34,692 nt of DNA. It comes from Bacteroidota bacterium (GTDB lineage: Bacteria > Bacteroidota > Bacteroidia > B-17B0 > Aurantibacillaceae). Shown piece after piece: positions 1 through 12,705 of the stretch. The notes under the pieces are model-generated. The model did not search any database. It worked only from the letters and a program-made list of their open reading frames with translations, and was not told the origin of the DNA. The stretch spans positions 1 to 34,692 of the forward strand of contig JACDED010000033.1 of assembly GCA_013816615.1 (NCBI GenBank). The letters run 5' to 3'. Position 1 is the first letter of the stretch, and the number at the start of each line of letters is the position of its first letter. The translations under genes were made by a program, and so were the position numbers.

Positions 1-43
1 GCACTTCAATAGTTGTTTCGGTAAATTCTTCTTGTTCTTTCAT
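1..43 (-). CDS. Partial CDS, N-terminal 14 codons of an unknown protein
   Basis: An ATG at 43 on the minus strand opens a frame that stays open to the window edge and begins MKEQEEFTETTIEV. It lies 60 bp downstream of the 137-residue gene on the same strand, so it may be the next gene of the same small operon. Too little is visible to assign a family. The acidic, charged start is like that of many small cytoplasmic proteins. The reading frame could be chance, but co-direction and spacing favour a gene. Confidence 0.4.
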   Translation of the reverse strand, partial: MKEQEEFTETTIEV

Positions 44-102
44 GGTATATGATTTTGTATGTATGGATAATAGATATTTTAAGATAAAATTTTAGTGTTT
101 GA

Positions 103-516
103 TTATAAATGCACGTGATTGGAATTATTATAGGGTGATTTACCCTGTTCGCTGTTACCACTTTTAGTGGTAAATAGTTCTTCATCGCGATGCTTGCTTT
201 TTTTATTTAGTTCATTATTTAATTGCAAAAGTATTCGCTCATGATCGCGCTGCAAATCCTTTATCTTATCTTTTTGTTTGGCGATCTGGCTTTGCATGAT
301 CTCCATTTTTTCATGCATAGGTTTTATAAACAAGATATAGGCTGCTCCCAACGAGCCTGCTCCGGAAAGTAAATGTTTTAACCAATCGGGAATGGTAAAA
401 CCTTCAAGGCCCAAACCTTCCAAAGGATTTTTTTTGTCTTGTTCTTGCTTTTGTTTGTTTTGGTGATTTTTTTCTTTGTTATCGTCACTTTCGTTTTCTT
501 GGTCGCTGGTTTCCAT
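103..516 (-). CDS. Small membrane/coiled-coil protein of unknown function
   Basis: This 137-residue protein is not recognised. Residues 1-32 are very rich in Asn, Asp, Glu, Lys and Gln. A short Gly/Leu segment with IPDWLKHLLSGAG is followed by a single likely membrane helix at about residues 48-65. Residues 66-105 are a charged heptad-like stretch (MHEKMEIMQSQIAKQKDKIK) that should form a coiled coil, and the tail is Ser/Asn-rich. The layout suggests a membrane-anchored spacer or scaffold. It lies 118 bp downstream of the HTH gene on the same strand, separated from it by a long hairpin, and it belongs to the presumed mobile-element end. No catalytic motif is visible. Function is unknown; a role in mobilisation or membrane tethering is only a guess. 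Confidence 0.6.
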   Translation of the reverse strand: METSDQENESDDNKEKNHQNKQKQEQDKKNPLEGLGLEGFTIPDWLKHLLSGAGSLGAAYILFIKPMHEKMEIMQSQIAKQKDKIKDLQRDHERILLQLNNELNKKSKHRDEELFTTKSGNSEQGKSPYNNSNHVHL

Positions 517-562
517 AATACTTATTTTTAATGGTAGTAGTTTGTTTTTTATGAAGCAAATG

Positions 563-608
563 TAATGAGGGCAAACTTTTTATTTCTTGTGAGTTTGCCC
601 TTTCATTA
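563..608. repeat. Long hairpin between the HTH and coiled-coil genes
   Basis: The arms TAATGA-GGGCAAACT (563-577) and AGTTTGCCC-TT-TCATTA (592-608) pair over 15 bp with one 2-nt bulge around a 14-nt loop. On the minus strand the hairpin lies between the HTH stop and the next gene. No clear U-run follows it, so it could be a weak terminator, an attenuator or an mRNA-stabilising element. Confidence 0.6.
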
Positions 609-634
609 CCTCATGTTTAAAACTGAACGAAACA

Positions 635-949
635 TTAAGCAGTAATAACGCGTTTATGTTTTAAGGTTTTCATAAAATTTAAAATCTCCGCTTTTTTAAA
701 TAATAGCTTGCGGCCTATTTTATAAAAAGGCATGCCTTTTTTCTTATAATTATGTATGCTTACCTTTGAGCAGCGCAAAAATTGTGATAATTCTAATATG
801 CTAAACACATCTTCATTTGGTGCAGCTTGATTTTTAGAAAGATCATTTCCCGCGTTGCCAGCGTTTATTGCTTCTTCGATCAGTTTTTTGGTCAGTGTTA
901 TAAACTCCTCAATAGTGAGGGTATATAACGGCTTTTGATCTAGGTTCAT
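635..949 (-). CDS. Excisionase-like helix-turn-helix DNA-binding protein
   Basis: This 104-residue protein has a helix-turn-helix of the excisionase/MerR-like type (HTH_17) at about residues 48-95. The pattern is DVFSILELSQFLRCSKVSI, then a wing with GMPFYKIGRKLLFKKAEILNFM, which is the usual layout of this family. The N-terminal 45 residues are a helical, Glu/Lys-rich extension ending in a polar linker. Proteins of this kind act as recombination directionality factors or small regulators on Bacteroidota integrative elements. Here it lies between the recombinase (upstream, same strand) and the membrane/coiled-coil gene. The repeat array lies between it and the recombinase, so the array is a natural candidate target, but that is inference. 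It could instead regulate an operon to the left of the window. Confidence 0.8.
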   Translation of the reverse strand: MNLDQKPLYTLTIEEFITLTKKLIEEAINAGNAGNDLSKNQAAPNEDVFSILELSQFLRCSKVSIHNYKKKGMPFYKIGRKLLFKKAEILNFMKTLKHKRVITA

Positions 950-1267
950 TTTTCTTTTTCTTTGCCCGGTGTTTTAAATTTTAAAGTTTGGGCCTGCTGT
1001 TTTTTGTTTTTTATTGGCTTAAGGCCTGAATGGATGTTCAGTTGCCTTTATGGCCTTGGTTTTTCTCCTTTCTTTTTTGCTTGTTTTAATTTTCTTTGAT
1101 TTGGTATTTTTAAAAGAGTGGGTATAGCTATGCCATTAAGTTTTGGTTTAAAAACAATTTACATTAAGTGTATTAAAGTTTAATAATTTGGATCGTAACA
1201 GAATTTTATTCCGTTAGCACTTGATAAAGCTAAGTATCATAGGCCTTCTTTATTTTATAACGGTTAA

Positions 1268-1300
1268 ACGTAAAAAGTATTACAAATTAATACGTAAAAA
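1268..1300. repeat. Inverted repeat nested in a direct repeat
   Basis: GTATTA-CAAAT-TAATAC (1277-1293) is a perfect 6-bp inverted repeat with a 5-bp spacer. It is flanked by and partly overlaps two copies of ACGTAAAAA (1268-1276 and 1292-1300, 24 bp apart). The geometry resembles a small tyrosine-recombinase core site or a dimeric repressor site. Function is unproven. Confidence 0.45.
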
Positions 1301-1323
1301 ATAGTTAAGGGTTGGGTTTTACT

Positions 1324-1426
1324 ATCTGCTTTAAAGAATTGTTTTATAAGTGGTGGTTTTTTTAGTAATACTGGATATTGAACAGATGTTTCCAAGCAAT
1401 ACTGGATTTACTCAATCTGCTTTAAA
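1324..1426. repeat. Two duplicated motifs left of the box array
   Basis: ATCTGCTTTAAA occurs exactly at 1324-1335 and 1415-1426. AATACTGGAT occurs exactly at 1367-1376 and 1398-1407. The two pairs are nested, with the AATACTGGAT pair inside. They may be a second class of binding site or remnants of an old duplication. Confidence 0.5.
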
Positions 1427-1519
1427 TTATTAAAGTGGCTTTAAAGGATGATGGACTAGCATTTTAAGAAGGGTATGATAATGAATAGGTGGGTTAGAGA
1501 AGATAATTCTTGATTTTTG

Positions 1520-2053
1520 TTTACACATAAGCGAGTACTATTCGTATTTATTGACGGTTAAACTTTTTTTTGCTAATCTTTTTTACGGATAATTCATGCT
1601 TTATTGACGGATAAACCTTTTTTGTTGACGGGTAATACCGGTTAAATGTTAAACTGTTGACGGATAATTGACGCTTTGTTACGGATAAGTTATTTTCTGT
1701 TGATGGATAATTTTTTTACCGTTAAAAGTGTTGACAGGTAATTTATTTTTGTTGACAGATAAATGGATTTAGTGATAAGGTCTCAGTAATTTTCTGATGT
1801 GGTTGTTTACGGATAGCTTTCTACTTGTTGATGGGTAAATAGATTTAGTACTTCATGTTACTCTCTGGCAGAATAATTTTGTTGACGGATAAAATGATTT
1901 AGTGGTAAAATCAATCTGCTCTGATGAAGTTTTAGTTTACGGATAATTACTTTTTGTTTACGGGTAAATGCATTTAGTCAAAATACCATAGCATACTCGC
2001 CCTAATAACTGCTAAATTTATTTACGGATAATTTACTTTTTATTGACGAAGTG
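1520..2053 (+). repeat. Array of 18 helically phased TTKACGGATAA boxes
   Basis: Eleven-base boxes close to TTGACGGATAA or TTTACGGATAA start at 1520, 1551, 1582, 1604, 1625, 1657, 1678, 1700, 1715, 1731, 1752, 1806, 1828, 1882, 1936, 1957, 2021 and 2043. The first and last are degenerate. The 1715 copy (TTTACCGTTAA) also reads as an inverted box. Leaving out 1715, the intervals are 31, 31, 22, 21, 32, 21, 22, 31, 21, 54, 22, 54, 54, 21, 64 and 22 bp, which are close to 2, 3, 5 or 6 helical turns. The boxes at 1752, 1828, 1882 and 1957 are each followed by ATTTAGT exactly 15 bp after the box start. The last box overlaps the integrase stop codon. Iterons, integrase arm sites or an excisionase-binding array are all possible. 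It is not a CRISPR array. Confidence 0.85.
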
Positions 2054-3290
2054 ATCCAAAAACCTTAGCCATTTCTTTAGCCCTTAAAGTATCGGCAATT
2101 TTAAAATAGCGTTGGGCAGATTTATAACTCCTGTTACCAGTTATAGCCATTGCAGTGGTTAAACTTCCGCCGCGCTCCAGAAAGTTAGTAACAAAGGATT
2201 TTTTGCTGGTATGAAAGGTGGCACATTGCCATAGGAGCTGAGTTTCTTCAAAACGATTAGCCCCTCTGTAATGGATGATCTGAACTTTACGGGTTAGCTT
2301 GGCTTTTTCCATTACTTTCTTTAAATACTGGTTGGCATCACCTCCTTTATATTGCGGCATACAAAATGGCAAATGCTTTTTAGCACGGCGTTTTATGATT
2401 TTCCGACTGTGGGGATTTAAAGGAATAATATTTGGTTCTTTTGTTTTAATGGTTCTATTGACAATTAAATCTCCCTGTATATTTTCAGGCTTCAATCCTT
2501 TTATGTCAGAGTATCTCATACCTGTAAAACATCCCAAACAATACATATCTCTTACCTCTGCTAAAGTCTTGTCTTCCAGTTTTAAATTTAAAAGCCGCAT
2601 TACTTCATCATAATGCAGGTAAATGATCTCTGTATTTTCCCAGGTGTTTTTAAATTCTTCTTTTTTATATTCTTCTGTATTATGATAACCGTTTTTTTGA
2701 GCCCAACTTAAAAATGCCTTTAATCGTTTTAAATTAGTACCTACATAATTATTAAAGTGCTTTTTTTCGTTAAAGCAGTAATCCAGGTAATCATCATAAA
2801 AGCGTTGGTTAATGTTTTCAAAGGTTAATTTATAGCGTCTGCTTTTACTAAAGTCTTCTAATGTTTTGTAGTTTAATTTGGCGTTGGAAACTGTTTTTGG
2901 TGTTTTACTGATGGCCAGGCTTTTTAAATAATCATCATAAGCTTGCCAGATCGTTTTTTTATCTGTGAGATCTAACAAGCGCTCATTAAGATTATCTCTA
3001 AAGTAGTCCAATGTTGGGGTTTGGTTGAGTACCTTTGCTTTATCGTAAAGTTCTTCTACTTTTGCTTTTAATCGGGTCAACTCCCGGTTATATTCTCCGG
3101 CTTCTGAATAGTTCTTTTTTACTTTCATAGCTACTGCATCCCATTTTTGGGCATCAACGCGTAGGTTAGTATAATACTGCAACCTTTGTCCGTGAAAGCT
3201 GTAAAACAAAAATATTGGCACGTTCTTAATGATAAGCTCGCCGCTTTGTTTATCCTTACGTTTTTCTAAATAAAATTTAACTTCTGCCAT
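2040..3290 (-). CDS. Tyrosine recombinase/integrase with unusual catalytic residues
   Basis: This 416-residue site-specific recombinase is of the Bacteroidota mobile-element type. Residues 1-100 look like an arm-DNA-binding domain, about 105-205 a SAM-like core-binding domain, and about 220-416 the catalytic domain. Visible catalytic positions are Arg259 in TGMRYSDIKGL, a beta-hairpin Lys near 282-284, His360 in FHTSKKSF, and the nucleophile Tyr395 in SAQRYFKI. Two positions differ from the usual pattern. The HxxR arginine is Lys363, and the His/Trp before the tyrosine is Asn386 (TGNRS). It should cut and rejoin the ends of the element. The last four codons overlap the final box of the phased array, so array and gene may have evolved together. 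The length is normal for the family, so it is not obviously truncated. Activity cannot be judged from sequence. Confidence 0.88.
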   Translation of the reverse strand: MAEVKFYLEKRKDKQSGELIIKNVPIFLFYSFHGQRLQYYTNLRVDAQKWDAVAMKVKKNYSEAGEYNRELTRLKAKVEELYDKAKVLNQTPTLDYFRDNLNERLLDLTDKKTIWQAYDDYLKSLAISKTPKTVSNAKLNYKTLEDFSKSRRYKLTFENINQRFYDDYLDYCFNEKKHFNNYVGTNLKRLKAFLSWAQKNGYHNTEEYKKEEFKNTWENTEIIYLHYDEVMRLLNLKLEDKTLAEVRDMYCLGCFTGMRYSDIKGLKPENIQGDLIVNRTIKTKEPNIIPLNPHSRKIIKRRAKKHLPFCMPQYKGGDANQYLKKVMEKAKLTRKVQIIHYRGANRFEETQLLWQCATFHTSKKSFVTNFLERGGSLTTAMAITGNRSYKSAQRYFKIADTLRAKEMAKVFGSLRQ

Positions 3291-3330
3291 AGTATGTTTT
3301 TATAGGAGACTTAATAATGCTATTCTACAT

Positions 3331-3340
3331 ACAAATTTAC
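3331..3340 (-). promoter_or_regulatory. Integrase promoter -7 box, or CTnDOT-like core site
   Basis: On the minus strand 3332-3339 reads TAAATTTG, a perfect Bacteroidota -7 element (TAnnTTTG), about 41 bp before the integrase start. No good -33 TTTG is seen at the right distance. The same bases read GTAAATTTGT, nine of ten matches to the GTAnnTTTGC core sequence known from CTnDOT-type elements, so this could instead be the crossover site. ACATACAA is repeated at 3327-3334 and 3339-3346, flanking it. Confidence 0.35.
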
Positions 3341-3378
3341 ATACAATTTTGCATTTATTGAGTTAAATTCAGATATTT

Positions 3379-3398
3379 TGAGCTTTATTCAAAGCTCA
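3379..3398. repeat. Perfect 8-bp inverted repeat upstream of the integrase
   Basis: TGAGCTTT-ATTC-AAAGCTCA is a perfect stem with a 4-base loop, 89 bp upstream of the integrase start. No T-run follows on either strand, so it is more likely an operator or part of an attachment region than a terminator. Confidence 0.5.
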
Positions 3399-3470
3399 TG
3401 AAACATCAGTAAAATATGGCTTTAAGTTAAATTCGATAAAGGAAATTAAACAGAGTTAATTGTTAAAATA

Positions 3471-3696
3471 CCTCCTCTAAAGGAGGATACTGTGTTTGCT
3501 TGCGTGAGGGATTGCAATGGAAATCTTTTTTGTGAGGATACGAACAAAAAAATTGGAATGTAAAGCCCGACCACGAGTGAGGCTCAATTGATTTACCGGC
3601 CGAACTCGTGGGCACGCCCAAATTAACAGAACTTAAGTAAATTTTTTTTAAATGAAGAGAGGTCTTTTCAATCTCCCTAACCTCTTTTCCAAGAGG
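3471..3696. repeat. Composite palindromic (REP/MITE-like) intergenic element
   Basis: Three palindromes lie in about 226 bp: CCTCCTCTAAAGGAGG (3471-3486, near perfect), CCACGAGT with ACTCGTGG (3571-3578 and 3604-3611, a stem with a 25-base loop), and CCTCTT-TTCC-AAGAGG (3681-3696). Between them are phrases such as GCGTGAGGGATTGCAATGG and GGGCACGCCC, which I recall as recurring in intergenic repeats of many Bacteroidota genomes. That recollection is from memory and was not searched. The element separates the presumed mobile-element end from ordinary chromosome. A 93-codon frame through it is an artefact. Confidence 0.6.
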
Positions 3697-3710
3697 GATT
3701 TGGTTTATGT

Positions 3711-4121
3711 TTAAAACAAAAAGAAAAAATAAGCGGCGGCCCATCTTCCTAAAATTTCTTTTGCATAACCAATAATTTCACCGTTTTGATTTTTAACGGT
3801 GCCATCGGGAGTAATAAGCCCTATTTGTTTATTTTCAGCATCGTAAACTGTGCCATCAATACTTTTATAAGTGCCAACTGTTTTGTGCGCTTCATTTTCA
3901 ATATGGCCATCGTTGGCAACAAAACCAATAACGATGAATTTTTTTCCAAGAACAGTGCCATCACTATTAAATTTGCCAATTACTTTATTGGTTTCATCTA
4001 ACACAGTTCCGTTGGTTTTAATGGTGCCTATAAAAACATTATCAGGTCCTTGCATAGCTTGCGAATAAGAGAGTAGGGAGGCTAATAAAAAATTAATTAA
4101 AATAAAAGATCTGTTTAGCAT
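3711..4121 (-). CDS. Secreted repeat protein, 5-fold beta-flower type
   Basis: A signal peptide is clear at residues 1-22 (MLNRSFILINFLLASLLSYS). The rest consists of about five repeats of 17-18 residues with the pattern V-I-G-x-[ILFY]-x-x-[ND]-G-T-V-x(5-6)-x-I-G, for example KVIGKFNSDGTVLGKK and KQIGLITPDGTVKNQN. A final half repeat ends GRWAAAYFFFLF. This matches my memory of the small Bacteroidota family annotated as 5-fold beta-flower proteins, each repeat giving one petal of a closed beta structure. It is probably periplasmic or surface-exposed. The biochemical role is unknown. The hydrophobic C-terminus is part of the family pattern rather than a membrane anchor. The stop codon lies against the palindromic element, with no terminator of its own visible. 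Confidence 0.75.
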   Translation of the reverse strand: MLNRSFILINFLLASLLSYSQAMQGPDNVFIGTIKTNGTVLDETNKVIGKFNSDGTVLGKKFIVIGFVANDGHIENEAHKTVGTYKSIDGTVYDAENKQIGLITPDGTVKNQNGEIIGYAKEILGRWAAAYFFFLF

Positions 4122-4298
4122 ATGTTGTTTTTTAATAGAACAGTTAAGGGAGCAAAATGTTTAATCTTTTTTATTCAGCTTTCCCTGCTTTTTCAAGTGT
4201 AATGCAGACGCGTATTGGCTTGGTTGCAATAATTTTATGGAAAGCACACTTAAAGTAATGGCTTCAGAGTGTCTTCTTGTGAGTTTTTTACAAGTGTT

Positions 4299-5015
4299 TT
4301 ATTTGTATTGTTGCGCGTGATAGATCGGTTGATCATTTACAAAATTAGCAATGATCTCAGCACTCATTGATCGGTTCTTATTTTGTTTAATATAATTTGA
4401 ATAGCCTTTTACGCTTTTCCATTTTTCGATCTTTAATTTTTCTTCGTTCTCCCTGCTTAAAGAAAGCAATTGATAACCTAAGCCGGCTTCAATGGCGCGC
4501 AACTCATCATCATAATTAATTTTATTTCTTGCCTTTGCAGAAAGCTGTTTAAAATGCCAGGCAACAAAATCAAGAAAGCCACCGGTTCTAAAATCCTCGA
4601 TCCTGCTAACCTGTATGGCAATTAGGCCGATCTGAGAATTAAGCGATAAATTTTTTAGCAACACACTGTCCAGAGTTGTTTCGCTAAGATTACTGTACCA
4701 GATCTTGTAGGTGCGCTGTTTTGGCGCTTTAAAAATAGAACCAAAAGTAGGTTTTATCTTTACGATCTTGCGTGAGTTTCTGAATTTGATCTTAATGTTT
4801 TGAAACTCGATCTTCGGAAAAAAACTTAAAGCGTAAGAGAATTTATTTTTAATGTTCAATGAAGAATCGCCGTTGGCCACAATTATCTTATTGGCTGTAT
4901 CTTTAAAATTAGGAAGTATAGAATCGTTTACGTTCTTGTAGTAAATATTCTGAGAAATCAGGCCGTTATATAAAAAAAACGTGGAAATTAAAAAAAGTAT
5001 AAGGTATTTGTTCAT
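4299..5015 (-). CDS. Unknown secreted protein with signal peptide
   Basis: I do not recognise this 238-residue protein. Residues 1-22 form a signal peptide (MNKYLILFLISTFFLYNGLI), and no lipobox cysteine is present, so a soluble periplasmic or exported protein is likely. The middle is basic and beta-rich (KIEFQNIKIKFRNSRKIVKI), and residues 160-238 are predicted helical and charged. No T9SS sorting domain, metal-binding cluster or enzyme motif is seen. It is divergent from the DMT transporter operon, whose start is 69 bp away, and lies 177 bp upstream of the beta-flower gene on the same strand, so those two could be co-transcribed. Confidence 0.7.
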   Translation of the reverse strand: MNKYLILFLISTFFLYNGLISQNIYYKNVNDSILPNFKDTANKIIVANGDSSLNIKNKFSYALSFFPKIEFQNIKIKFRNSRKIVKIKPTFGSIFKAPKQRTYKIWYSNLSETTLDSVLLKNLSLNSQIGLIAIQVSRIEDFRTGGFLDFVAWHFKQLSAKARNKINYDDELRAIEAGLGYQLLSLSRENEEKLKIEKWKSVKGYSNYIKQNKNRSMSAEIIANFVNDQPIYHAQQYK

Positions 5016-5083
5016 ACATCAAAAATATAAAAATAAATTTTACAATTAGCCACAATAAATATAAATTTACCTACAAGGAACAG

Positions 5084-5962
5084 ATGCTTTATATACTCCT
5101 CACCATTATTATCAGTGTACTGCTTTTATTGATATTTAAAGCATTTCAAAAATACGGGGTAAACTCACTGGTAGCAATTGTTGTAAACTATATTACCGCG
5201 GGCATTACAGGTATTCTCTTCTTCAATTCAGATATCAGTATAAACGCCATTCTTGCATCCGATTGGATCTATATTTGTTTGCCTTTAGGCCTTTTGTTTA
5301 TCTGTATATTTTACCTTATTGCACTTACCACGCATCGCATAAGCATTTCTGCCGCAGCTGTAGCTAATAAAATGAGCGTGATCATGCCGGTGCTGTACTC
5401 TATTATTTTTTTGAACCAACACTTATCTGCTTTAAAGATCGTAGGGATCGTTCTGGCAATGTTGGCCGTTTATCTTTCAACCCGCTCCTCTCAAAAAAGT
5501 AATGTTAGTTCCTCTTTGATCTGGCTGCCTGTTTTAGTGTTTGTTGGCAGTGGTTTAATTGATATTGCTATTAATGCCAGTAATGCTTTTTATATACATT
5601 CAAAAGGTGAAAGTGCTTTGTTCAGTATCTGTACCTTTTTATCTGCATTTGTAATTGGTATAATTATTTTGCTGTATTCGGTATTTGTAAAAAGATCTTT
5701 ATCCATAAAAGAAGTAGTGGCGCCAAAAAATATTATTGGTGGTTTGGTATTAGGTATTCCGAATTATTTCAGCATCTTTTTTATTTTTAAATCGTTAGAT
5801 GCAAATGTGCTTCAAAGCGCGCAGCTGTTCCCGGTTTTAAATCTTTCTAATGTAGCCCTTTCTGCATTTTTAGGATGGCTGATATTTAAAGAAAAATTAT
5901 CGCCAATAAATCTTGCGGGTATTGCGCTGGCTATTATTTCTATTTTACTTATTTCGTTCTGA
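5084..5962 (+). CDS. EamA/DMT-family inner-membrane transporter
   Basis: The 292-residue product is almost wholly hydrophobic, with about ten membrane helices in two similar halves, as in the drug/metabolite transporter superfamily. The first half begins MLYILLTIIISVLLLLIFK. The second half starts near residue 145 after a short polar loop (STRSSQKSNVSS) and ends with the helix IALAIISILLISF. It probably exports or imports a small metabolite; the substrate cannot be told from sequence. It is the first gene of a tight three-gene set. Its TGA overlaps the ATG of the YigZ gene by one base (TGATG), which points to translational coupling. Length and topology are normal for the family. Confidence 0.85.
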   Translation: MLYILLTIIISVLLLLIFKAFQKYGVNSLVAIVVNYITAGITGILFFNSDISINAILASDWIYICLPLGLLFICIFYLIALTTHRISISAAAVANKMSVIMPVLYSIIFLNQHLSALKIVGIVLAMLAVYLSTRSSQKSNVSSSLIWLPVLVFVGSGLIDIAINASNAFYIHSKGESALFSICTFLSAFVIGIIILLYSVFVKRSLSIKEVVAPKNIIGGLVLGIPNYFSIFFIFKSLDANVLQSAQLFPVLNLSNVALSAFLGWLIFKEKLSPINLAGIALAIISILLISF

Positions 5963-6576
5963 TGCTTTTTTCCGATTCCTATTTAACTATAAAAGCGCCA
6001 GTTGAAATTCTTTTTAAAGAGCGTGGGTCAAAATTTTTGGCCTTTACTTTTCCTGTAACTAACGATGCGGAAATAAAAGAATGTTTGCTCCAATTAAAAA
6101 AACTTCATCCAAATGCCAATCATCATTGTTACGCCTGGCGTTTAGGCGCCGATAAATCTGCCTTTAGGGCGAACGATGATGGGGAGCCTTCAAATACAGC
6201 CGGTAAACCAATTTTAGGGCAGATACAGGCAGCTGATCTTACCAACGTTTTGGCGGTAGTAGTGCGTTATTTTGGCGGTACGCTTTTAGGTGTGGGCGGA
6301 TTAATAAATGCTTATAAAACCGCGGCCGCAGAAGTAATTGCAGCTTCGGAGATATACGAACGGTTTATTTTATTTGAGTATAAAATTGATTTTAATGAAG
6401 AAAGCATTAACTTGGTGATGCGAATTTTGAAAGAGACAGGAGCAAAAATATTAGCGCATACTTACGAGGAGAATAATTCAATTATTTTTCAAATAAAAAA
6501 GCAAAATTCAGATAAATTAGAAAAAGATTTTACTGAACTTTACACTTCAAAATTAACGTACCTTAAAACACTTTGA
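5962..6576 (+). CDS. yigZ: YigZ/IMPACT family protein
   Basis: This 204-residue protein has the UPF0029/IMPACT N-terminal domain at about residues 15-125. Its two signature blocks are ANDDGEPSNTAGKPILGQI and VVVRYFGGTLLGVGGLINAY. A smaller C-terminal ferredoxin-like domain follows at about 135-200. Family members in other organisms are linked to translation control and ribosome-associated stress responses, but the bacterial function is not settled. The gene is coupled to the DMT transporter upstream (one-base overlap) and followed after a single base by the M42 peptidase, so all three form one operon. Length is normal. Confidence 0.92.
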   Translation: MLFSDSYLTIKAPVEILFKERGSKFLAFTFPVTNDAEIKECLLQLKKLHPNANHHCYAWRLGADKSAFRANDDGEPSNTAGKPILGQIQAADLTNVLAVVVRYFGGTLLGVGGLINAYKTAAAEVIAASEIYERFILFEYKIDFNEESINLVMRILKETGAKILAHTYEENNSIIFQIKKQNSDKLEKDFTELYTSKLTYLKTL

Positions 6577-6577
6577 T

Positions 6578-7531
6578 ATGAACAAGAATAAAACGACTTC
6601 TGAATACAACGTCCTTAAAGAAATGTGTCATATGCATGCTCCCAGCGGTAACGAGGTTGGTATGAAAATGTTTGTTTTAAATTACATTAAAGAAAATTCT
6701 AAGAACTGGAAGCACAAACCTAAGGTTATTCACGGTGATGGTTTCCAGGAAAATATTATTTTAATTTTTGGTAAGCCCCGCACTGCTATTTTCGCCCACA
6801 TGGATAGCATCGGCTTTACAGTACGTTATGGTAAACAGCTCGTTAAAATTGGCGGCCCCGTTACAGCTAATGGCTTTAAGCTTATTGGTTCAGATAGCAA
6901 AGGTTTGCAGGAAGTAGAATTGCAAGTGAAGGATGATAAAGCAACGGGCATGCGCAGTCTTTTTTATAAGGGAAAACGCGATTTTGAAACAGGAACCGAA
7001 CTAACCTTTAAACCAAACTGGCGTGAAGACAAAAATTATATTCAGTGCTGTTATATGGATAACCGTTTGGGGGTTTATAACGCTTTAAAGGTTGCCGAAA
7101 CTTTAAAAGATGGCGCCATTGTATTTAGTACTTACGAAGAACATGGCGGAGGAAGTGTAAGTTATCTTCAAAAATACCTGGCAGATAAATATAAAATTTC
7201 ACAAGCACTTATTTCAGATATCTCGTGGATCTCTGATGGTGTTAGCTACGCCAAAGGTCCGGTAATTAGTATGCGCGATAGTTTAGTGCCACGTCGTAGC
7301 TACATCAACAAAATAATTTCTATTGCTACAAAAAATAAATGCGCTTTTCAGTTAGAGGTTGAAGGTAGTGGAGGAAGTGATGCTAAAGAATTACAAATGG
7401 CTGCTTATCCATGGGACTGGTGTTTTGTTGGTGCCGCGGAAGAGAATGTGCATACACCGGATGAAAAAGTTCACAAAAAAGATGTGGAAGGAATGATAAC
7501 GCTTTATAAAGCGTTGATGAAAGATCTGTAA
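6578..7531 (+). CDS. M42-family metallo-aminopeptidase
   Basis: This 317-residue cytoplasmic peptidase is of the M42 (glutamyl aminopeptidase/endoglucanase M-like) group, which forms large tetrahedral dodecamers and removes N-terminal residues from peptides. The metal and catalytic positions can be followed: His74-Met-Asp76 in AHMDSIGFTV, Asp161 in CCYMDNRLGVYNAL, Glu187-Glu188 in TYEEHGGG, Asp214 in LISDISW, and His292 in ENVHTPDE. All appear present, so the enzyme should be active with two metals. It is third in the transporter/YigZ operon, starting one base after yigZ. The next gene is convergent, with only 3 bases between the two stop codons and no room for a separate terminator. The natural substrate is unknown. 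Confidence 0.9.
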   Translation: MNKNKTTSEYNVLKEMCHMHAPSGNEVGMKMFVLNYIKENSKNWKHKPKVIHGDGFQENIILIFGKPRTAIFAHMDSIGFTVRYGKQLVKIGGPVTANGFKLIGSDSKGLQEVELQVKDDKATGMRSLFYKGKRDFETGTELTFKPNWREDKNYIQCCYMDNRLGVYNALKVAETLKDGAIVFSTYEEHGGGSVSYLQKYLADKYKISQALISDISWISDGVSYAKGPVISMRDSLVPRRSYINKIISIATKNKCAFQLEVEGSGGSDAKELQMAAYPWDWCFVGAAEENVHTPDEKVHKKDVEGMITLYKALMKDL

Positions 7532-7534
7532 AAA

Positions 7535-8380
7535 TTAAAAGCCGTAATTTTTATTATCACGGTTAAAATCATCTTTCTTAAACGGTTTGTTTATTTCAAT
7601 GTTAGTGTATTCGTAACTTTCAAATAAACCGGCATCATCATAAAGACTGATAGAAATTGGAAGCATTAATTTTTCATCAATAAATAATACCGCTTTTTTG
7701 CAATACAAGGTTGGCACTTTTAAGATCTTGCCCTTTCTTAAATAACCAAAATCATTTAACAGGTCGTTATTATCTCGCAATAAATATTCGTTCACGCACA
7801 ATTTAGAGGCAATAACACCTACAGTTTCTTTATCACCCACTTTATAATCTACATAATTGTAATTTTTATTTTCATACTCCAATAAAAAACAGGTATAGCC
7901 ATTCTTATGTGATTTACCCTTATATGAAAAATGGTTGAGGCCATCTTTATCTTTACTTAGTGTTAGCGCAATAGAAGTGCCAATAAATGAATAACCCAAT
8001 TCATGAATCGAGTAGTGTTGGTTCTTACGCATAATATTACCCGTTGGATCAAGGCTTAGGGTCATGTAAGGAAAAACATTTGGTTTTACGAGTGCCTTGC
8101 GGCCATATAATTCTGTATTGTATAAAACTTCCAGTTTTTTTGTACGGTTAACGAAATATACTTTTCGTGGCGAGGTTTGTACTAAATATTCAGAATTAGC
8201 AGAGGAAAATTTTTTGTCAATACGTTCTAAAGCGGCAACTTTTGTTCGCATTGTCTTTACATTCTTAATTGAATCGTACATTTGATGTAAGACCCTTGCG
8301 GGTGTGATCTCTCCCGGGTTTCGAAACGCAAAACCCACAAGCACAGCACAAACAAAGAATATGACAATTTTAATGTTCAT
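7535..8380 (-). CDS. DUF1571-like periplasmic protein with LysM-like insertion
   Basis: A signal peptide or N-terminal anchor lies at residues 1-19 (MNIKIVIFFVCAVLVGFAF). Residues 25-170 and 225-281 resemble the LolA-like DUF1571 fold: an N-terminal helix MYDSIKNVKTMRTKVAALER, then repeated antiparallel strands with YLVQTSPRKVYF and a C-terminal YEYTNIEINKPFKKDDFNRD. Between these, residues 176-224 read like a LysM domain: YVDYKVGDKETVGVIASKL, then VNEYLLRDNNDL and RKGKILKVP. LysM domains bind peptidoglycan, so the protein may contact both lipid or lipoprotein and the wall. This insertion is my reading and was not tested. The gene is divergent from kdsB and convergent with the M42 gene. Confidence 0.75.
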   Translation of the reverse strand: MNIKIVIFFVCAVLVGFAFRNPGEITPARVLHQMYDSIKNVKTMRTKVAALERIDKKFSSANSEYLVQTSPRKVYFVNRTKKLEVLYNTELYGRKALVKPNVFPYMTLSLDPTGNIMRKNQHYSIHELGYSFIGTSIALTLSKDKDGLNHFSYKGKSHKNGYTCFLLEYENKNYNYVDYKVGDKETVGVIASKLCVNEYLLRDNNDLLNDFGYLRKGKILKVPTLYCKKAVLFIDEKLMLPISISLYDDAGLFESYEYTNIEINKPFKKDDFNRDNKNYGF

Positions 8381-8417
8381 ACTTTACAAACATTAAAAAT
8401 AGCTAATAGTTTTTAGT

Positions 8418-8425
8418 TATTTTTG
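8418..8425 (+). promoter_or_regulatory. Promoter -7 box for kdsB
   Basis: TATTTTTG fits the Bacteroidota -7 consensus TAnnTTTG and lies 23 bp before the kdsB ATG. No clear -33 TTTG is seen in the short divergent spacer. Confidence 0.45.
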
Positions 8426-8448
8426 GAATTGATTTAAAAAAACACAAA

Positions 8449-9192
8449 ATGTCGATAATCGGAATAATTCCTGCCCGTTACGCCTCTACAAGGTTTCCCG
8501 GAAAGCCTCTTATAGAAATAAAAGGAAAATCAATGATACAAAGGGTTTATGAGCAAACTGCTAAAGCCAAACTGTTAAACAGTGTTATTATTGCAACCGA
8601 AGATGAACGCATTGCCAAACACTGCGAAGCCTTTGGGGCAAAAGTGGTGATCACAAAACCTGAGCATCCGAGTGGTACCGACAGATGTTTTGAAGCCTAT
8701 AAATTAAATGGCCAAACCTTTGAGCATATTTTAAATGTACAGGGAGACGAGCCTTTTTTGGACCCCGAACAAATTGATTCGTTGGCAATGGCCTGTAAAG
8801 CCGATACCGAAATTGCAACGCAAATGATAAGGTGTAGCGATCATGAAATTTTATTTGATAAAGGTGAAGTAAAAATTGTTTTAAACCCGAATAACGAAGC
8901 CATTTATTTTAGCCGTTCTGTTATCCCTGCTATAAAAGGGAAAGATGAAAAAGAATGGCACAAGCATTATAATTATTTCAGGCATGTGGGCATGTATGCT
9001 TACCGCGCAGATATTTTAGAAAAGATAACGCGTCTTCAACCTTCTGCTTTAGAATTGGCAGAATCGTTAGAACAATTGCGTTGGGTAGAACATGGTTACA
9101 AGATCAAATGTGTGGAAACAACTTTTGATAGTCATTGCATTGATACGCCCGAAGACATTGAAAAAGTAATTCGCCTGATGAAGATCCAATAA
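8449..9192 (+). CDS. kdsB: 3-deoxy-manno-octulosonate cytidylyltransferase
   Basis: KdsB activates Kdo with CTP to give CMP-Kdo, which is then added to lipid A during lipopolysaccharide synthesis. The 247-residue length matches the family. The nucleotide-binding start IIPARYASTRFPGKPL (residues 5-20), the PSGTDRCFEA motif near 90, the metal-binding NVQGDEPF near 110 and the C-terminal IDTPEDIEKV block are all intact. The product is cytoplasmic. The gene lies 21 bp upstream of queA on the same strand, so the two may share a transcript, although their functions are unrelated. It implies a Gram-negative outer membrane with Kdo-containing LPS. Confidence 0.97.
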   Translation: MSIIGIIPARYASTRFPGKPLIEIKGKSMIQRVYEQTAKAKLLNSVIIATEDERIAKHCEAFGAKVVITKPEHPSGTDRCFEAYKLNGQTFEHILNVQGDEPFLDPEQIDSLAMACKADTEIATQMIRCSDHEILFDKGEVKIVLNPNNEAIYFSRSVIPAIKGKDEKEWHKHYNYFRHVGMYAYRADILEKITRLQPSALELAESLEQLRWVEHGYKIKCVETTFDSHCIDTPEDIEKVIRLMKIQ

Positions 9193-9213
9193 TTTTTTTG
9201 AGCTTTTTTTAAA

Positions 9214-10431
9214 ATGAACAAACATCCTTCTTTAATTGAAATAAGCGATTACATTTACGATCTTCCACAGGAAAAAATTGCCAATTATCCTTTACAGAAC
9301 CGGGATGCTTCAAAACTCTTGATCTATAAAAATAAAACCATAAGCGAAAATAGTTTTAAAAACATTGATCAGTTTCTTGAAGAAGAAAGCGTTTTAATTT
9401 TTAATAATACGCGTGTAGTTCAGGCACGTTTAAATTTTCAAAATTCAAAACAACAAGCTATTGAGGTTTTTTGTTTGGAACCTTTTCAGGCAGATCTTGA
9501 TATTACGCAAGCTATGTTAAGCACTCAAAAAGTATTGTGGAAATGTTTGGTTGGAAATTTAAAAAAATGGCGCGATGAAGATCTTACTTTAATTTTAGAA
9601 AATATTTCGTTAAACGTTAAGTTAATTGAAAAACGACCAGACGACGTGGTAGTAGAGTTTAGTTGGGAGCCAAAAGCGCTTTCATTTGCAGAAGTGCTTG
9701 AAAGAAGCGGTGCGATGCCAATTCCTCCTTACTTAAAACGTAAAAGCGAAGAACTGGATGCAACACGGTATCAAACTATTTATGCCGAAAAGAATGGTTC
9801 GGTGGCTGCTCCAACAGCGGGGTTACATTTTACACCTGCGGTTTACGAAAAATTAAAACAAAAAAATATTCAAGCGTTGTATGTTACATTACATGTTGGC
9901 GCAGGAACTTTTAAACCTGTAAAAACAACAACATTAGCAGAGCATGATATGCATGCTGAATGGATAGATGTGAGCAAAGAAACGATCGGGGAATTATTGA
10001 AGAACAGCACTAAAAAGAAAATTGCTGTTGGTACTACCTCCTTGCGTACAATAGAATCGTTGTATTGGTTGGGCGTAAAAGTGTTTTATAATAAAAATTT
10101 ATTAACAGGTCAGTTAGAGTTGAGTCAGTGGGAACCATACCAGGAAGTGGAAAAAGAATTAAGCACCGCTGAAAGTTTAACTTCGTTATTAAAATGGATG
10201 GAAGAGAATTCTTTACAACGTTTGATTTGCAAAACAAGTATCCTTCTTGCCCCGCCATACAGGCTGCGATTGGCCGATGGCATTATAACCAATTTTCATC
10301 AACCCCAAAGTACTTTATTGTTGCTTATAAGCTGTATTGTAGGAAATGATTGGAAAAATATTTACCAATATGCTTTACAAAATGATTTTAGGTTTTTAAG
10401 TTATGGTGATAGTTCTTTATTACTAAAATAA
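9214..10431 (+). CDS. queA: S-adenosylmethionine:tRNA ribosyltransferase-isomerase
   Basis: QueA transfers and rearranges the ribosyl part of SAM onto 7-aminomethyl-7-deazaguanine at the tRNA wobble position to make epoxyqueuosine. Visible motifs are RDASKLL, FNNTRVVQARL, AAPTAGLHFT, LHVGAGTFKPV, GTTSLRTIESLYW and IITNFHQPQSTLLLL. At 405 residues it is longer than the roughly 340-360 of proteobacterial enzymes. Most of the excess lies at about residues 285-350, between TSLRTIES and the TNFH block, and I recall similar lengthening in other Bacteroidota. The gene follows kdsB closely. No other queuosine gene is present in the window. Confidence 0.95.
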   Translation: MNKHPSLIEISDYIYDLPQEKIANYPLQNRDASKLLIYKNKTISENSFKNIDQFLEEESVLIFNNTRVVQARLNFQNSKQQAIEVFCLEPFQADLDITQAMLSTQKVLWKCLVGNLKKWRDEDLTLILENISLNVKLIEKRPDDVVVEFSWEPKALSFAEVLERSGAMPIPPYLKRKSEELDATRYQTIYAEKNGSVAAPTAGLHFTPAVYEKLKQKNIQALYVTLHVGAGTFKPVKTTTLAEHDMHAEWIDVSKETIGELLKNSTKKKIAVGTTSLRTIESLYWLGVKVFYNKNLLTGQLELSQWEPYQEVEKELSTAESLTSLLKWMEENSLQRLICKTSILLAPPYRLRLADGIITNFHQPQSTLLLLISCIVGNDWKNIYQYALQNDFRFLSYGDSSLLLK

Positions 10432-10450
10432 AGTGTGGGATAAATAGAAT

Positions 10451-10484
10451 TTTGAAAAAGGTCTCGTTTTTTTTAATATTTTTG
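10451..10484 (+). promoter_or_regulatory. Promoter for the first T9SS cargo gene
   Basis: TTTG at 10451-10454 and TATTTTTG at 10477-10484 match the Bacteroidota -33/-7 elements with a 22-bp spacer, on the long side of the usual range. The ATG follows 23 bp after the -7 box. Confidence 0.6.
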
Positions 10485-10507
10485 GTAAAACATTTAATCT
10501 ATACGCC

Positions 10508-11518
10508 ATGAAAAATTTTTATTTATCACTTTTATTATCAGCAGCAGGCTTGGTTGCAAATGCTCAATTAACACAAGCTAACCATGCATTTGTAGGCGGT
10601 GAAATTTTTACAACCTACCAGTGCGATTCTAATGGCGTTACTGCCGGAGCTTCGGGTGCAGGCGCAACCTGGAACTATGGAACGATTACTACCCATAGCA
10701 GCATGCTGGTTGGTTATTCTGTAACTGTAAACACAAATACTTCTTACCCAATGCCGGGCTTAGCTCTTTCTTCAACGGCTAATAACACATCGTATTACAC
10801 ATCTAACCCAACAGATACAAAATATTGGGGTGGTAATATTTTAGTTGGATCTATTGGCGCTACACTTACTTATACAAGTGGAGCATTTACAGCAGTTTAT
10901 CCAATGAATTTAAGTACAAGTACGGTTAGTGCAACAGGCGGAAGCATTTCAGTTCCTGCTTTATCGCAAAATGGTACGTTTACCGGAAATGCAGGAACTA
11001 TTGCAGATGGAACAGGTACATTGATATTACCAACAGGTACATATACCAATGTTGTACGTGTAGTTACCACACAAACAATTAATTTTACTACGCCATTAGC
11101 AAATGGAACCGTTACTCAGAAGAATTGGGACTATTATTCGGTAGGAACTAAAAACTCCTTATTTACAATTTCTGCATCAACAGTTGTTACCAGTTTAGCA
11201 CCAACACCTTCTTCTCAAACAGTTGTTACACGTAACGCCCCATCATCAGTTGGTGTTAAAGAAAATAAAGCGAATGTAATTTCTTTATCTGTTTTCCCTA
11301 ATCCATCTTCAACACAAATAACTTTATCTACTGAAAGCGATAAAGCAAATACAGTTGTAGTAAATGATATAACAGGAAAAATGATCTCTGCTTATACTTT
11401 CGAAAATAATAAAGTAAACTTCAGTACTTTAGAAATGACCAACGGTATTTATTTTTACACTGTTAAAAACGCTCAAAAACAAAATTTAGCTACAGGTAAA
11501 TTTACAGTAGCACATTAA
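10508..11518 (+). CDS. Secreted protein with T9SS type A sorting domain (copy 1)
   Basis: This 336-residue exported protein has a signal peptide at residues 1-19 (MKNFYLSLLLSAAGLVANA). The body (about 20-255) is Ser/Thr/Gly/Asn-rich and probably all beta, and I do not recognise a family for it. Residues 262-336 are a type IX secretion type A C-terminal domain, with VFPNPSSTQITLS, VVVNDITGKMIS and NGIYFYTVKN, ending in ATGKFTVAH. The protein is expected to cross the inner membrane by Sec and the outer membrane by the T9SS, and to end at the surface or outside. The next gene is a full-length paralogue with the same layout. It has its own promoter and intrinsic terminator, so it is expressed as a single gene. 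Confidence 0.88.
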   Translation: MKNFYLSLLLSAAGLVANAQLTQANHAFVGGEIFTTYQCDSNGVTAGASGAGATWNYGTITTHSSMLVGYSVTVNTNTSYPMPGLALSSTANNTSYYTSNPTDTKYWGGNILVGSIGATLTYTSGAFTAVYPMNLSTSTVSATGGSISVPALSQNGTFTGNAGTIADGTGTLILPTGTYTNVVRVVTTQTINFTTPLANGTVTQKNWDYYSVGTKNSLFTISASTVVTSLAPTPSSQTVVTRNAPSSVGVKENKANVISLSVFPNPSSTQITLSTESDKANTVVVNDITGKMISAYTFENNKVNFSTLEMTNGIYFYTVKNAQKQNLATGKFTVAH

Positions 11519-11691: not shown

Positions 11692-12705
11692 ATGAAAAAA
11701 ATTTATTTATCTCTTCTTACAGCTTTAGCGGGTTTATCGTTAAATGCACAAACATTAACTAATGCTAACCATTCACCTGCCGCAGGTGATTTGTACTCAA
11801 CTTACCAATGTGATTCATTAGGCATTAGCGCTGGCGCTTCAGGTGCAGCAGCATTATGGAACTTTACATCTGTTGCAACTCATAGCAGCATTGTAAATAA
11901 TTATACAGCTACTGCAAATGCAAATGCGTCTTATCCAATTCCGGGTGTACAATTAGGTTCAGCAGCAAGTAATTTATCATTTTATAAATCTACTGCTACA
12001 AACCTTACTTATTGGGGTGGTAATGTTACAATTGGTGCTATTGCTGCAACATTTGTTTATACAATATCTGCAGTTAGAGCTGCTTACCCAATGAGCTTAA
12101 ATACAACAAGCACTGCTGCAACTGCAGGTAGTATCAGTATTCCTGCTTTATCACAAACAGGTACATTTACAGGTAACAGTACTACTTTAGCTGATGGAAC
12201 GGGAACTTTAGCTTTAATTACAGGAACTTTCACAAGTGCTATTCGCGTTGTAACTTCTCAAACAATTAACTTTTCAGTACAATTAGGTACAGGATCAGTT
12301 ACACAAAAAAATTGGGATTATTTTGATATCGGTACTAAGGAAGCTTTATTTACAATTTCAACTGCAACTATCGTTGCTCCTTTAGTTGGTACATCCACTC
12401 AAACAATTGTTACACGTCACAAACCATTAGTTACCGGTCTTTCAACTAACAACAATAACAAAACAGTTGATATGATCGTTTATCCTAATCCATCAAATAC
12501 TAATGTAAATTTTGCAACTGAAAATACGGATGCAAAAACAGTTGTTGTTTATGATGTAACAGGTAAAATGGTTGAAAAGCAAAATTTAACTGAAGGAAAA
12601 TTAAGATTAAATGTTTCTGATTATACTAACGGTTTATATATTTATAGTATTATTGGTTCAAATAACCAAGCAATCAAAACAGGAAAAATTACTGTTAGCC
12701 ACTAA
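11692..12705 (+). CDS. Secreted protein with T9SS type A sorting domain (copy 2)
   Basis: This 337-residue paralogue of the preceding gene aligns end to end. The signal peptide is residues 1-19 (MKKIYLSLLTALAGLSLNA). Shared blocks include STYQCDS, GASGA, YWGGN, SIPALSQTGTFTGN, ADGTGTL, VTQKNWDYF, and the C-terminal VYPNPSNTNVNFATE, YDVTGKMV, NGLYIYSI and TGKITVSH. The body family is not recognised. Codon use is even more AT-rich than in copy 1, with many GCT/ACA/TTA codons. The pair arose by tandem duplication, and both copies look intact, so they may have diverged in ligand or expression. Confidence 0.88.
   Translation: MKKIYLSLLTALAGLSLNAQTLTNANHSPAAGDLYSTYQCDSLGISAGASGAAALWNFTSVATHSSIVNNYTATANANASYPIPGVQLGSAASNLSFYKSTATNLTYWGGNVTIGAIAATFVYTISAVRAAYPMSLNTTSTAATAGSISIPALSQTGTFTGNSTTLADGTGTLALITGTFTSAIRVVTSQTINFSVQLGTGSVTQKNWDYFDIGTKEALFTISTATIVAPLVGTSTQTIVTRHKPLVTGLSTNNNNKTVDMIVYPNPSNTNVNFATENTDAKTVVVYDVTGKMVEKQNLTEGKLRLNVSDYTNGLYIYSIIGSNNQAIKTGKITVSH

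Follow-up and report, generated by a model that had tools for sequence, protein, structure and literature searches.

Boxes of 11 bp (TTKACGGATAA) arranged beside a recombinase gene raise the question of whether they serve recombination or replication, and of which protein binds them. The original prediction proposed that the array is either where a plasmid-like integrative element starts its replication or a recombination control region. The boxes lie near the start of the window (the whole stretch of DNA analyzed, 34,692 nucleotides), which starts from a contig end (C50, in a Bacteroidota genome of 4.7 Mb) and in which positions 1–3490 form the left portion of an integrated element. In this element, a tyrosine recombinase gene (int, 2040–3290, minus strand; Arm-DNA-bind_5, SAM_5, and Phage_integrase) has a stop codon that overlaps the end of the array. 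Three further genes lie on the same strand: HTH2 (635–949), encoding an HTH protein (HTH_17/DUF3853) with a weak excisionase-family match; O137 (103–516), a small protein of a common module that is 57% identical to a relative in G034:C56; and the first codons of O97 (1–43). The rest of O97 lies on C117, another contig of this genome: a 2-bp overlap between the two contigs gives back the full reading frame, and the zinc-ribbon gene O303 (C117:214–1011) comes next.

The left end of the element is marked by a palindrome (CCTCCTCTAAAGGAGG, CCTCC...GGAGG, 3471–3486), a candidate att core; similar palindromes also mark the start of homology in loci L009, L010, and L011. The adjoining chromosome (3667–7531) is syntenic in five relatives without the element at this place. 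A right attachment site was not found in C117 or in L144. The size of the element (int, array, HTH2, O137, O97, and O303) would be about 4.5 kb, assuming that its right end comes soon after O303, as in L145. We saw no helicase or primase gene in the recovered part.

We scanned positions 1451–2100 and found 18 plus-strand matches to the box at two or fewer mismatches, spanning 1520–2031, and 13 at one or fewer, while the minus strand of this region gave none at two or fewer. The dinucleotide-shuffled array region gave 0.5 matches on average and 5 at most, and the rest of the window holds about 0.3 boxes per 530 bp per strand. After a first box at 1520, a dense part (1551–1762, plus strand) has boxes starting at 1551, 1582, 1604, 1625, 1657, 1678, 1700, 1731, and 1752, spaced by 21/22/31/32 bp, and a sparse part (1806–2031, plus strand) has boxes at 1806, 1828, 1882, 1936, 1957, and 2021. 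These 16 boxes are in phase, and the remaining two (1715 and 1768) are not. The predicted number of 18 boxes holds at this threshold, but the one at 1768 (TTTAGTGATAA) is a weak match, and at 2042, within the array as a whole (1520–2053, plus strand), the TTGACG half alone is retained (TTGACGAAGTG).

Distances among the in-phase boxes are 21, 22, 31, 32, 54, or 64 bp; short direct repeats with regular spacing are what an iteron origin would have. A periodicity test, as had been suggested, was run on these positions, here against random placements. The 13 strong boxes gave a best period of 10.70 bp (R = 0.94), and the 16 boxes that remain when 1715 and 1768 are left out gave R = 0.90; none of 4000 random placements, scanned across the same period range as the real boxes, equalled either value. 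With the full set of 18 boxes, R was 0.72 (p = 0.001). Phasing was expected of every box except 1715, and 1715 is indeed out of phase, but so is 1768. The proposal that 1715 is an inverted copy is doubtful because the plus strand fits it better (2 mismatches vs 3 on the minus strand). Mean information is 1.36 bits per box column vs around 0.35 in the flanking columns, so that boxes are conserved and spacers are not; this contrast indicates that the array did not arise by recent tandem duplication. We regard the array as confirmed. An ATTTAGT motif and a variable spacer follow boxes 1752, 1828, 1882, and 1957. The flank at 1150–1500 is A+T-rich (28% G+C vs 31% in the array and 34.7% window-wide) and is a candidate unwinding region; on its minus strand are two degenerate boxes (1264 and 1288).

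Searches with HTH2 and O137 led to relatives that carry O270, O99, O137, O97, and O303 together with a large serine recombinase unrelated to the integrase of the window. The box recurs in these elements between O270 and O99: TTGACGGATAA arrays lie upstream of O99-O137-O97-O303 in L206, L207, L216, and L218, and a weaker one in L203. The spacings are 22/21/22/20/22/20 bp in L206, 20/22/20/22/20/11/22 bp in L216, and 32/20/22/22/20/12/21 bp in L218, and the four arrays tested have a period of 10.5–10.8 bp with phasing p values from <0.00025 to 0.008. The array stands about 200–400 bp upstream of the first gene of the module. A palindrome around GGGTATACCC is conserved in L203–L207 between the array and O99, about 150–300 bp upstream of O99. 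HTH2 was rejected as the array binder, as serine-recombinase elements carry the box without HTH2.

In a further, close relative, L145, one of three G034 elements with an integrase 91% identical to that of the window, eight or nine boxes lie within the coding sequence of O303 and are translated as YPST/YPSI repeats; their phasing is weaker (p = 0.09). In L145 (G034:C56), other genes also fill about 7 kb (4340–11475) from int to O270; relatives have just the array in that interval. By eye, these genes include imelysin-like, di-haem, and histidine kinase genes. Some multi-box matches proved unrelated: those in viral contigs (L113 and L121) are other repeats, a coding repeat in the case of L121, and L045 (G006) is a chance pair of boxes in a coding gene.

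We then looked at O303 beyond this box. Of 395 genomes, 82 contain matches to its profile, with the weaker matches limited to the zinc ribbon, and among 52 copies surveyed the usual gene order is O97-O303 followed by a large serine recombinase. Arrays of at least 6 copies were present in 14 of 46 O303 regions vs 1 of 65 control regions (Fisher p = 1.2e-5), so that about two thirds of O303 regions have no array at this threshold. A de novo scan found an array upstream of O303 in L266 (TTTACGCTA, 14 copies) and one inside O303 in L282 (CCAACGCAA, 13 copies, 10/32-bp spacing). Arrays of other boxes lie in the O303 linker in L282, L285, L262, L263, and L276, and a minority of arrays are unphased (L257, L262, L263, and L276), the first three of these being in-gene arrays. 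The O303 of L282 (G130:C62) contains a 14-residue repeat (TNANQRKLTEDAME) of 42 bp, or four helical turns, with two boxes per unit.

Boxes tend to be more alike where the O303 proteins are more alike, whether these are compared at the zinc-ribbon end (r = 0.59) or at the C-terminal end (r = 0.62); the boxes used were picked by eye from the output of the de novo scan. The zinc ribbon and the rest of O303 are not separable in this correlation (partial r = 0.18, p = 0.10). Apart from weak zinc-ribbon matches, O303 had no counterpart among Pfam, NCBIfam, and PHROG families, nor did any PDB chain match it; since it matches neither a named family nor a solved structure, the argument for an initiator role is drawn from its architecture. 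Searches of plasmids, phages, and viral contigs found none with O303, and we found no published account of such elements in the open-licence literature.

A sister module was seen in L144, L146, L198, and L209, in which a zinc-ribbon protein is fused to a RadA/loader-like ATPase. This zinc ribbon and the one in O303 are related (hhalign E 2.4e-5), as are O80 of the sister module and O97 (E 1.5e-5), and TTAATCGATTAA arrays adjoin the zinc-ribbon ATPase gene. These palindrome arrays flank the gene at 7527–7600 and 9395–9464 in L144 and at 12405–12507 and 14295–14376 in L146; in L198, a TTAATCGATTAA array (8439–8800) lies directly 3' of int. A predicted structure of the zinc-ribbon ATPase (L009/L011) was set aside (mean pLDDT 40). 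That two modules share related components and yet each has repeats of its own is easier to reconcile with replicons than with recombination control.

This type of array accompanies the zinc-ribbon gene in a family of small Bacteroidota elements, whichever recombinase they carry, and is therefore probably a replication origin rather than an integrase control site. Its likeness to ori-lambda, to the origin of PLE, and to SGI1 oriV makes it most likely that a small integrative element has an iteron-type origin here and that O303 is its probable initiator; according to our in silico analysis, we give this reading slightly better than an even chance. Counting against it are the lack of a helicase or primase gene in the recovered part, the absence of O303 from the plasmids, phages, and viral contigs searched, the O303 regions without an array, and the unphased in-gene arrays. 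The original prediction is partly supported, its replication-origin alternative being the better founded of the two given the recurrence of the array with O137-O97-O303. We infer that the element excises and that a protein of this module, most likely O303, binds cooperatively to the in-phase direct repeats along one side of the DNA. This nucleoprotein assembly would then initiate replication of the excised element, by melting the adjoining A+T-rich DNA or by loading the host replisome. More tentatively, and at somewhat less than even confidence, O303 may represent an undescribed initiator family with a zinc-ribbon DNA-binding end, a linker that holds phased iterons in some lineages, and a conserved C-terminal end; a large set of small elements in Bacteroidota, among which tyrosine and large serine recombinases are exchanged, would then be driven by it.

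The comparative evidence that links the array to a binding protein from the O137-O97-O303 module would also serve for a centromere, an operator, or another cooperative nucleoprotein array involved in partition, silencing, or operon regulation and not in replication. The position of the array upstream of the first gene of the module in serine-recombinase elements would suit such a role, and ParR/TubR-type centromeres also take the form of phased 11-bp direct repeats. However, boxes within the O303 coding sequence (L145, L282, and L285) are unlike an operator placed upstream of its operon, and no ParM-, ParA-, or TubZ-like gene was recognized in the elements examined; none of the three is among the genes of the recovered part of the window's element, whose right end is uncertain. 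We consider this explanation possible but rather unlikely.

Could the integrase instead use the boxes as its arm-type sites, or could they govern integration and excision as a control region specific to this recombinase? The array overlaps the int stop codon within the same element, and the integrase carries an arm-binding domain. However, three integrases of G034 are 91% identical to that of the window, arm-binding domain included, and in all three loci homology to the window ends at the 3' end of int. The box array is absent at this site in L009–L011, where two of the G034 loci have a different 11-bp repeat (TAGCA...) and the third has unrelated genes. Moreover, TTKACGGATAA-type arrays are present in the elements with a large serine recombinase, and the candidate core at 3471–3486, itself unproven, is about 1.4 kb from the array. 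The refuting condition given with the original prediction, homologous elements without the array, applies only to homologues defined by the integrase; among those defined by the O137-O97-O303 module, arrays recur. We find arm sites improbable, and the earlier alternative of a recombination control region is disfavored on the same two grounds, the absence of the array beside 91%-identical integrases and its presence with a serine recombinase. The HTH protein, which had been named as a possible binder, is also unlikely to be one, since its recognition region is almost the same in elements that lack the box next to int. The TAGCA units are spaced by 11 bp and lie 3' of a near-identical integrase in L144 (G034:C30, 11700–11940) and L146 (G034:C17, 9990–10200); this array is conserved between the two elements and unrelated to the window box.

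Slightly less probable still is the binding of a DnaA-related protein to the TTATCC half of the box. TTATCC occurs both in the reverse complement of the box (TTATCCGTMAA) and in the DnaA box TTATCCACA, and a stand-alone DnaA domain IV gene adjoins O303 (C117:1128–1514; Bac_DnaA_C, E 4e-15). Against this, the half that is conserved in other elements is TTGACG and not GGATAA, no other scanned element locus has the stand-alone gene, and the array contains no DnaA box at one or fewer mismatches. The only such match within positions 1–3490 is TTATCCATA at 62. A DnaA box near iteron origins is common but not universal, so that its absence near the array speaks against an origin without being decisive. 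The stand-alone protein (L212, G000:C117, minus strand) has 128 residues and its gene is convergent with O303; elsewhere in 41 genomes only full-length chromosomal DnaA is similar to it. Neutral minisatellite DNA without function is the least credible explanation, for although Bacteroidota genomes do have 21-bp minisatellites, and one of these has a similar motif in a coding 7-residue repeat (L051), here the boxes are conserved and the spacers are not, helical phase is kept across jumps of 21/22, 31/32, 54, and 64 bp, and the array recurs at the O137-O97-O303 module in other genomes. L051 itself (G144:C14) is a coding 21-bp minisatellite of KGLSVTE repeats whose likeness to the box is incidental.

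If the array is an iteron-type origin with O303 as its initiator, Bacteroidota would harbor an overlooked class of small integrative elements with their own replicon and no detected similarity to known Rep proteins. The origin and initiator would form a pair open to direct test, and the variants of box and zinc ribbon would offer a natural series for studying changes in DNA recognition. It might also supply a new replicon for vectors in a phylum poor in tools.

Among known systems, the Bacteroides tyrosine integrases of CTnDOT and NBU1 have arm-type sites near int. Like these, the array consists of short repeated sequences close to int in an element from Bacteroidota, but it has far more copies, is not tied to the integrase, and is distant from the candidate core. 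SGI1 oriV is, as proposed for this array, an iteron origin in an integrative element, beside a rep gene and near recombination genes, but its four 17-bp iterons, putative DnaA box, and RepA_C initiator are all absent from the window's element (PMC7433901). The phage satellite PLE is also a small integrative element, and its origin sequence covaries with its initiator, the DNA-binding domain of RepA varying together with the origin; PLE relies on a RepA_N initiator and three iterons, each semi-palindromic and about 30 bp long, whereas the element studied here has many asymmetric 11-bp boxes, an unnamed protein, and no known helper phage (PMC8263062). In phage lambda, ori-lambda sits within gene O (PMC6022878). 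In both systems, the direct repeats are next to, or within, the gene for the protein presumed to bind them, and the O303 proteins of L145, L282, and L285 are built like lambda O, with an N-terminal DNA-binding part, a repeat-bearing linker, and a C-terminal part. O303 differs as a zinc-ribbon protein that matched no known initiator family, and the array of the window differs in lying outside O303, between int and HTH2, with a spacing of about 21/32 bp and 16–18 copies. The principle of phased iterons in an integrative element is already known, while the O303 family and its in-gene arrays appear to be new.
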